Positions 55,839 to 58,064 of a DNA stretch of 64,000 bases are shown here, one piece after another (the first letter of the stretch is position 1; the number at the start of each line of letters is the position of its first letter). This DNA comes from an uncultured Myxococcales bacterium. GTDB lineage: Bacteria > Myxococcota_A > Polyangia > Polyangiales > Polyangiaceae. The stretch is from the NCBI GenBank assembly GCA_937902985.1, contig CALFNG010000207.1:1-64000 (forward strand), written 5' to 3'. Under the pieces are notes generated by a model, which saw nothing but the letters and a program-made list of their open reading frames with translations, was not told the DNA's origin and searched no databases. The position numbers were made by a program, and so were the translations under genes.

Positions 55839-55985
55839 ATGTTGCTCATCATCATTCTCGTCGTACTCGCACTGTCTGTCGGCGGGGGCACTTGGGGGCA
55901 TTCGCGGTATGGCTACGCCGGCTGGTCGCCGGCCGCGCTGGTCCTCGTCGTGCTGGTCCTGCTGTACCTCACCGGCCATCTGTGA
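55839..55985 (+). CDS. DUF3309-family small membrane protein
   Basis: MLLIIILVVLALSVGGGTWGHSRYGYAGWSPAALVLVVLVLLYLTGHL*; GGAGAGGAG RBS. Confidence 0.85.
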   Translation: MLLIIILVVLALSVGGGTWGHSRYGYAGWSPAALVLVVLVLLYLTGHL

Positions 55986-56139: not shown

Positions 56140-56249
56140 ATGGCTCACCTTCTCGTGGTCGACGACGACAGTGATCTCGTAGAGGCTTACGCAGAACTGT
56201 TGCGCGCAGAAGGCCCTGAGGTCCGCACTGCGCGTACTGGCGAGGAAGT
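56140..56249 (+). pseudogene. Truncated response-regulator receiver domain (about 37 aa)
   Basis: MAHLLVVDDDSDLVEAYAELLRAEGPEVRTARTGEEV, then the 44-bp array. Confidence 0.75.
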
Positions 56250-56521
56250 GCGACATCCAAGCCCTTGCATGTCGCTCGACGAGCTCGTGAAGGGCGACAT
56301 GGCCGGCCCGCGCGTGTCGCCTCACGCTCGTGTGCAGCGCGACATGCATCGACGACAATGTCGCTCCACCCGCTCGCTCCGAGCGACATGCGAGGCGGAG
56401 CGTGTCGCACGACCCAGCTGTCCGGAGCGACATTCTCGACCGCACAGGTCGCCTCGCTCGACCTTGGAGTGCGACATGGACACGGAGGCGTGTCGCTCCA
56501 TCAAGGATACACAGGCGACAT
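56250..56521. repeat. Six complete 44/45-bp units plus a seventh left arm: GCGACAT-N13/14-TGTCGC-N18
   Basis: GCGACAT at 56250, 56294, 56339, 56383, 56427, 56471, 56515; opposing TGTCGC (one GGTCGC) about 20 nt after each of the first six. Confidence 0.9.
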
Positions 56522-56552
56522 TCACTCGCGGCGAACGCCGGACCCCATGGAA

Positions 56553-58064
56553 TCAAGCCTCGCTGGGGCCTGCCACGGACACTATCGCTGCCAGGAGCTC
56601 GGCGCCGCGGACGGGCTTGTAGACGATGATTCCCGGATACGTCCGCAGGAACTCGTCGTAGTTCGAGCCCGAACCGCCCGAGGTCGCCAGAATGGCGCGC
56701 CGCGCGAGATCGGGCCGGTTCGCCTCGAGCCAGGCCAGGAGATCGCGGCCGTCTTCGCCAGGGAGATCGAGCTCGATCACGAGGACGTCGGGCGTCGAGC
56801 CCGACTGGAGCATGTCGATCGCCTCGCGTCCGTCGTAGGCGATCATCAGGCGATGCTGCGTGCCGAGGAGGCGCGCGTACGAGCGAAGGACGCGCTCGTC
56901 GTCGTCGACCACGAGCACGCTGGTCGCCGCCACGGTGCGCTCGTTCGCCTCGAACGCGTCGGTCTCCTTCCGCGTGTTCCGCAGGGCCTCGGCCGATGGG
57001 ATCGGCAAGAAGCAAAGGAAGGTGGCCCCCTCGCCATAGACCGATTCGACCGACAGCTCCCCGCCGAGACGCCGCAGGATTTCGCGCGAGATGGAGAGCC
57101 CGAGGCCCGTTCCCAGCGCCTGGCTCTTCGTCGTGAAGAACGGATCGAAGATCCGCTCGAGCGACTCGGGAGAGATCCCGGGGCCGGTGTCGCTCACCGC
57201 GATCGCGACGAAGTCGGCGTCGGCCCGCGCGCTGATCCGGACGCGGTGGGCGGGGCGGTCGACCTCGGCGATCGCGTGGAAGGCGTTGATGAACACGTTC
57301 ATGATGACCTGCGTCACGCGGCCGCGCGGAACCACCAGCAGCGGGAGGTCCGGGGCGTAGTCGCGCTCGAGCACGCCGCGCCGTGAGGCCTCGCGACCGA
57401 TGAGACGGATGGCGTGCTCGATCAACTCGGGAACTTCGACGCGACCGGGCGGTTCGTCGCGGTCCGAGCGAGCGAACGTGCGGAGATCGCGCACGATGGC
57501 CGCGATCGCATCGGCGGCGGCGCCCATCTCGTCGAAGATCGCCGCGGCCCCGCGACCGTCTCGATCGGGCCACTCGTGCTTGCGGAGCGCGGCGATCGCG
57601 CTCTGCGGGATGGGCGCGCCGATCTCCGCCGCCCGCGCGATCTCGCGGGCCGCGTCGAGCGACGGGAGCATGTAACGACGAGCCACCTCGACCGAGAGAA
57701 TGACCGCCGACAGTGGGTTGTTGATCTCGTGCCCCACGCCCGCGACGAGGGTGCCCAGGGCCGTCAGCCGTTCGGTGTGCGCGAAGGTCTCTTGCAGCCG
57801 CCGGTTGTCGCCCCGCAATCTCGCCCTCAGCTCGAGGCGGTCGACGAACGCCGCGAGCCCCGCGGCGTCGAAGGCCGCGACGACAGCGGCTTCGTCCGCG
57901 CCCCCGGCGAGAGCCCCGAGAACCGCCGGTTCGTCTTCGGCGATGAACCCGATGGGCGACGCCGAGTCTCGCTCGCGACGCTCGGCGACGGCGGACTGCA
58001 CGTTGCCCGCGAGGACGGCGAAGGCGAGCCCCCGGCCACGGACCCACGGGAGCGACTCGGCCAA
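56553..58064 (-). CDS. Hybrid sensor histidine kinase with C-terminal receiver domain
   Basis: LGTLVAGVGHEINNPLSAVILSVE (H-box), VSDTGPGISPESLERIFDPFFTTKSQALGTGLGLSISREILRRLGG, SVLVVDDDERVLRSYARLL. True start may lie slightly upstream. Confidence 0.93.
   Translation of the reverse strand: MAESLPWVRGRGLAFAVLAGNVQSAVAERRERDSASPIGFIAEDEPAVLGALAGGADEAAVVAAFDAAGLAAFVDRLELRARLRGDNRRLQETFAHTERLTALGTLVAGVGHEINNPLSAVILSVEVARRYMLPSLDAAREIARAAEIGAPIPQSAIAALRKHEWPDRDGRGAAAIFDEMGAAADAIAAIVRDLRTFARSDRDEPPGRVEVPELIEHAIRLIGREASRRGVLERDYAPDLPLLVVPRGRVTQVIMNVFINAFHAIAEVDRPAHRVRISARADADFVAIAVSDTGPGISPESLERIFDPFFTTKSQALGTGLGLSISREILRRLGGELSVESVYGEGATFLCFLPIPSAEALRNTRKETDAFEANERTVAATSVLVVDDDERVLRSYARLLGTQHRLMIAYDGREAIDMLQSGSTPDVLVIELDLPGEDGRDLLAWLEANRPDLARRAILATSGGSGSNYDEFLRTYPGIIVYKPVRGAELLAAIVSVAGPSEA

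Follow-up and report, generated by a model that had tools for sequence, protein, structure and literature searches.

The array of inverted half-sites found in the window (the whole 64,000-nucleotide stretch that was analysed, part of contig C207 of this Myxococcales genome) is best explained as a copy, lacking its left end, of a dispersed family of BIME-like non-coding arrays that likely serve as sites for a dimeric protein, a reading to which we give about an even chance of being correct as a whole. The array is real: the pattern GCGACATN{12,15}TGTCGC picks out seven exact palindromes, both strands counted, where 0.01 were expected, a number that none of 100 shuffles reached. The initial annotation had reported seven GCGACAT heptamers at steps of 44, 45, 44, 44, 44 and 44 nt, the first six each followed after 13 (once 14) nt by TGTCGC (once GGTCGC) and then by 18 nt, and this layout was confirmed exactly. 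The half-sites alternate in orientation at steps of 20 and 24 bp (one of 21), with a mean of one half-site per 22 bp. A coding repeat is ruled out by the 44-bp period, from which the initial annotation had already argued against one, and by the lack of a conserved frame. The array is part of a longer element that recurs at other loci; the element's right end runs to about 56535, and its left end, known from other copies, is missing here (Table 1).

Table 1. Features of the array and its neighbourhood, in window coordinates.
Feature	Position	Strand	Remarks
Half-site array	56250..56520	.	12 exact half-sites (GCGACA / TGTCGC) and 1 degenerate (GGTCGC, 56447); alternating; period 44
First inner palindrome, GCGACAT-N13-TGTCGC	56250..56275	.	
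Further inner palindromes	starts 56294, 56339, 56383, 56427, 56471		right arm degenerate at 56427
First outer palindrome, TGTCGC-N18-GCGACA	56270..56299	.	
Further outer palindromes	starts 56315, 56359, 56403, 56447, 56491		degenerate at 56447
Conserved right end of family A element (GGCGACATTCACtCG...)	56423..56535	.	common to C446, C365, C255 and C128; by eye and block alignment
ORF start resembling N-terminus of a response-regulator receiver domain	56140..56249	+	by eye (MAHLLVVDDDSDLVEAYAELLRAEGPEVRTARTGEE); cut off at the array's left edge
Histidine kinase with receiver domain	56553..58064	-	HisKA, HATPase_c, Response_reg
Small membrane-protein-like ORF	55840..55985	+	by eye; final clear gene on the plus strand ahead of the array

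The setting of the window array was judged to be convergent, since the last clear gene before it is the small membrane-protein-like ORF on the plus strand and the gene beyond it is the histidine kinase on the minus strand, whose stop codon lies 33 bp past the last half-site. The whole receiver-like ORF gave no Pfam match. A similar truncation was observed at C128 (L017 1994-2450), where a minus-strand frame, by eye resembling a beta-propeller repeat protein, is cut short near the array edge.

A genome-wide scan revealed 35 paired palindromes, mostly in arrays on contigs C101, C128, C192, C207 (the window), C255, C338, C365, C418 and C446, so that arrays with GCGACA/TGTCGC arms (family A) occupy about nine loci. 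The initial annotation would have been refuted by the lack of any further array here or in relatives, a condition that does not apply, since many are present in the genome. With the C101 array as BLAST query, the window copy matched at 86% over 189 bp, and other copies at 74-92% in their best matches. The spacers of the window array align in order with those of C101, and this order is common to the dispersed copies. A left end (GCGAGCCAAAAGCGAC...) is common to C101, C255 and C192, and partially to C338, while a right end (GGCGACATTCAC...) is common to the window, C446, C365, C255 and C128. These shared features identify the family A arrays as copies of a single element in which the number of 44-bp units varies.

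Summed over six blocks, homologous positions differed at 4 of 192 arm positions (about 2%) and at 167 of 608 spacer positions (about 27%), where a position counted as arm if either of the compared sequences was exact there, a definition that favours a low arm difference. The spacers had been described as unrelated in sequence, which is contradicted by their shared order and by the consensus of both classes across copies, which is palindromic (inner, GCGACATGC-N8-GCATGTCGC; outer, about TGTCGCTCCGCACACGTGTGCGGAGCGACA). No covariation was detected between the two spacer halves of family A, which pair no better than shuffled halves. The unit thus gives no indication that a specific hairpin within it is selected, and the arms and their spacing, rather than a hairpin loop sequence, were argued to be under selection.

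Family A is, as far as tested, restricted to this lineage. Its exact 50-base array pattern was absent in 57 relatives, two congeners included, and a profile of its unit rose no higher than chance level in the rest of a 110-genome family set. Scans with the array pattern yielded only single isolated matches in nine genomes across GTDB and one isolated match, on one viral contig, in IMG/VR; by our estimate, this is close to what a pattern of 18 bases would give in collections as large as these. The relatives lack family A sequence, and at least one of them has arrays of 42-43 bp period. Literature searches on palindromic or tandem repeats of myxobacteria brought up no matching element.

Stretches of this genome (about 1.2 Mb, partly chosen on array-bearing contigs) and a small sample of relatives (about 0.75 Mb) were searched for inverted words in alternation and for tandem repeats, whatever their sequence, and further arrays with a period of 42 or 44 bp were revealed. 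The genome carries dozens of arrays, with at least three dispersed families (B, C and D) besides A. No sequence match was found among the four families. Family B (unit about GCGAAGCCGCCCGATCGGCTCGCCTGAGAGACGCGTCCCTCA, 42 bp) occupies about 16 loci and has fixed outer ends at several of them; family D (CATGGCAAGTGCCATGGTTCGTGATCGCAAGGGCGATGGTCGAC, 44 bp) occupies about eight; both were absent in 34 relatives. Family C is known from C7 and from C446, where it lies directly beside a family A array. At the latter locus (L022 1-310), seven near-identical 44-bp family C units run straight into the family A array, which makes the locus a junction of two families.

Nearly all arrays show dyad symmetry, with one dyad about every 21-22 bp. 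The symmetry of the consensus unit was significant for family A (p<0.0002), family B (0.001), the C446 array (0.0008) and family D (0.004), and was not significant for the family C array on C7 or for two of the three arrays tested in the distant relative G033. The arrays of G033 have periods of 42-43 bp, and one is clearly symmetric. Half-units of family D lie at multiples of 22 bp (43 of 44 in one array). Periods of non-coding tandem repeats in this genome cluster at 20-23, 42-44 and 87-88 bp, overlapping reports of one array being left unmerged, and those of coding tandem repeats are mostly multiples of three. The best reading is that geometry rather than sequence is conserved among the arrays.

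The arrays often start just past stop codons, 18-37 bp at C101 and C255. Among two-sided settings, 12 of 27 were convergent, compared with 25% of background gaps (p=0.026), as called by a simple composition-based caller that overlooks kdpE at C338 and small genes in the window; by eye, the convergent count would be 14. This enrichment is modest, and none was found in family D. Flanking genes encode a methyltransferase, a SNF2 helicase, DsbA-like thioredoxins, a TPR protein, an AI-2E transporter and KdpD, with no neighbouring gene common to the arrays examined; these flanking genes are unrelated to cas genes. At three family B loci (L248, L249 and L257), the TAG stop codon of unrelated right-hand genes lies exactly at the element edge, which suggests either that the element inserts at stop codons or that it supplies the stop.

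At the C101 locus, the array and a SNF2 helicase gene lie between the methyltransferase gene and a glycosyltransferase gene. In congener G002, the latter two genes face each other directly, with 54 bp between matches. The helicase gene is found elsewhere in both congeners, which places the C101 array at a rearrangement point. A GC-rich hairpin (GCCGCCCCGCCGGCAGGGCGGC) was observed in G002 (L098 1500-1536) between the two convergent genes, at the place taken in this genome by the array and the extra gene.

The element consists of two alternating palindromes with dyads 21-22 bp apart, or two turns of B-DNA. In the proposed mechanism, it would grow internally as its 42-44 bp unit is tandemly duplicated and homogenised, and would spread to new loci as a whole element with common ends, settling mostly in the 3′ regions of genes. 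Every palindromic dyad is a putative site for a dimeric DNA-binding protein, and many such sites on one helical face may form a nucleoprotein patch that would serve as a BIME-like chromosomal site; an array at gene ends may also separate convergent transcription. The two-turn dyad spacing is fixed across unrelated families. The simplest reading is a row of dimeric-protein sites on one face of the helix, and helical phasing would then underlie the period. Counting against this, no candidate binding protein for the arrays was found, and the period could reflect the mechanics of duplication instead of protein binding. Among the four options of the initial annotation, a multi-site binding platform is favoured, a chain of hairpins is possible, a recombination-prone array gains some support from the position of C101 at a synteny break, and a CRISPR-like array does not stand.

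A broader proposal, which we put forward only tentatively, is that the arrays form a class in which a dyad every 21-22 bp is conserved and the sequence is free, the spacing being read by an unknown architectural protein or by an unknown spreading enzyme. With sequence free under a conserved dyad geometry, unrelated families could so arise and turn over within one lineage.

The arrays might instead act as RNA. Transcripts reading through from either flanking gene would fold into long hairpin rods, and these would terminate transcription or shield the 3′ ends of mRNAs, in a bidirectional, Rho-assisted or stabilising manner. The predicted folding is far stronger than that of shuffled sequences (z = -4.7 for the window, -10.6 for C101, -10.8 for C192, -7.0 for family D and -4.7 for family B), although palindromic arms by themselves would give such folds. 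Many arrays start no more than tens of bases away from a stop codon; this, the stop codons at the family B edges and the short GC hairpin of G002 at the C101 site are all consistent with a role at transcript ends, but the genes on either side of some arrays are divergent or in tandem. The arrays are also symmetric on both strands, the family A spacer halves do not covary, and no T-run follows the window array. Compared with Rfam, four array-bearing loci gave a tRNA and no other match. Since read-through transcripts would fold strongly, a function as RNA is kept as a rival reading, which we consider rather unlikely.

It is also conceivable, if improbable, that the arrays are selfish or by-product repeats, palindromic tandems expanded by slippage, copied by recombination and tolerated at gene ends as the least harmful place. 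Such repeats would fit the fast turnover of families restricted to this lineage, the homogenised centres and degenerate ends of the arrays, their occurrence at contig ends and in mixed gene settings, and the array at the C101 synteny break. However, slippage alone leaves unexplained both the period of 42-44 bp with dyads every 21-22 bp in unrelated families and the much lower rate of change in arms than in spacers. Acquired CRISPR-like spacers, which the constant repeats, variable spacers and regular spacing had brought to mind, are excluded with near certainty, because copies at unrelated loci have common spacers in the same order where CRISPR arrays have direct repeats and unique spacers, the repeats here are 6-7 bp long and inverted, and a single isolated match was all that IMG/VR yielded.

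Among known systems, the closest counterparts are BIMEs, palindromes at regular spacing with alternating orientation (PMC2817692), and the initial claim that no element with this layout has been described was therefore too strong. The arrays studied here share with REP/BIME elements their non-coding, dispersed, palindromic and regularly spaced nature, the alternating orientation, a BIME-2-like tandem expansion and a largely extragenic position, often after genes (PMC2817692, PMC3733652). They differ in their dyad spacing, fixed at 21-22 bp, in the presence of several unrelated families in one genome and in their low copy number (about 35 exact palindromes in family A), REPs usually exceeding 100 per genome (PMC2817692). 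No GTAG or CGTC tetranucleotide marks the hairpin foot of the family A unit, with its GCGACA arms. The Y1 transposase (TnpAREP/RAYT, PF01797) had no match in the genome, which is 96% complete, and matched in 5 of 14 control genomes; a RAYT-driven REP was rejected on that basis. Binding of gyrase, IHF or Pol I is a further trait of REP/BIME elements. The arrays work like BIMEs, and membership of the REP/BIME class is not claimed, as neither the Y1 transposase nor, in the family A unit, the GTAG/CGTC tag was found.

Like MITEs, the arrays are short, non-coding and multi-copy, with common outer ends in family B and an orthologous junction lacking the array in a congener; unlike them, they contain an internal tandem array, and no parent transposase was identified. 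Neither terminal inverted repeats nor target-site duplications were seen by eye, family B having fixed ends. In plasmid iterons and partition-type repeat arrays, numerous protein sites follow one another on one face of the helix at intervals of about 22 bp. By analogy, the putative sites described here would be arranged similarly, whereas these arrays are chromosomal, dispersed and inverted instead of direct, and no replication or partition gene was recognised beside those of family A.

Knowledge of BIME-like arrays comes mainly from systems that have a dedicated transposase. Dozens of arrays in several unrelated families that keep to a single geometry, in a genome where no such transposase was detected, constitute a natural experiment that parts sequence from spacing, and this genome can show whether the cell or a spreading machinery recognises regular dyads at two-turn spacing. 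The assembly consists of 563 contigs with arrays at contig ends, so array counts are lower bounds and array lengths may be inaccurate; as several contigs start or end inside arrays, the arrays may explain part of this fragmentation. Beside the family A array of C255 (L019 5283-5860), about 580 bp are bounded by long inverted repeats (GGGGTCTGTCTCGAAATTCTTCCCCGTAAGCGTGCCCGTGCCCGTG...), and this stretch resembles a further small element of the mobile or inverted-repeat kind.
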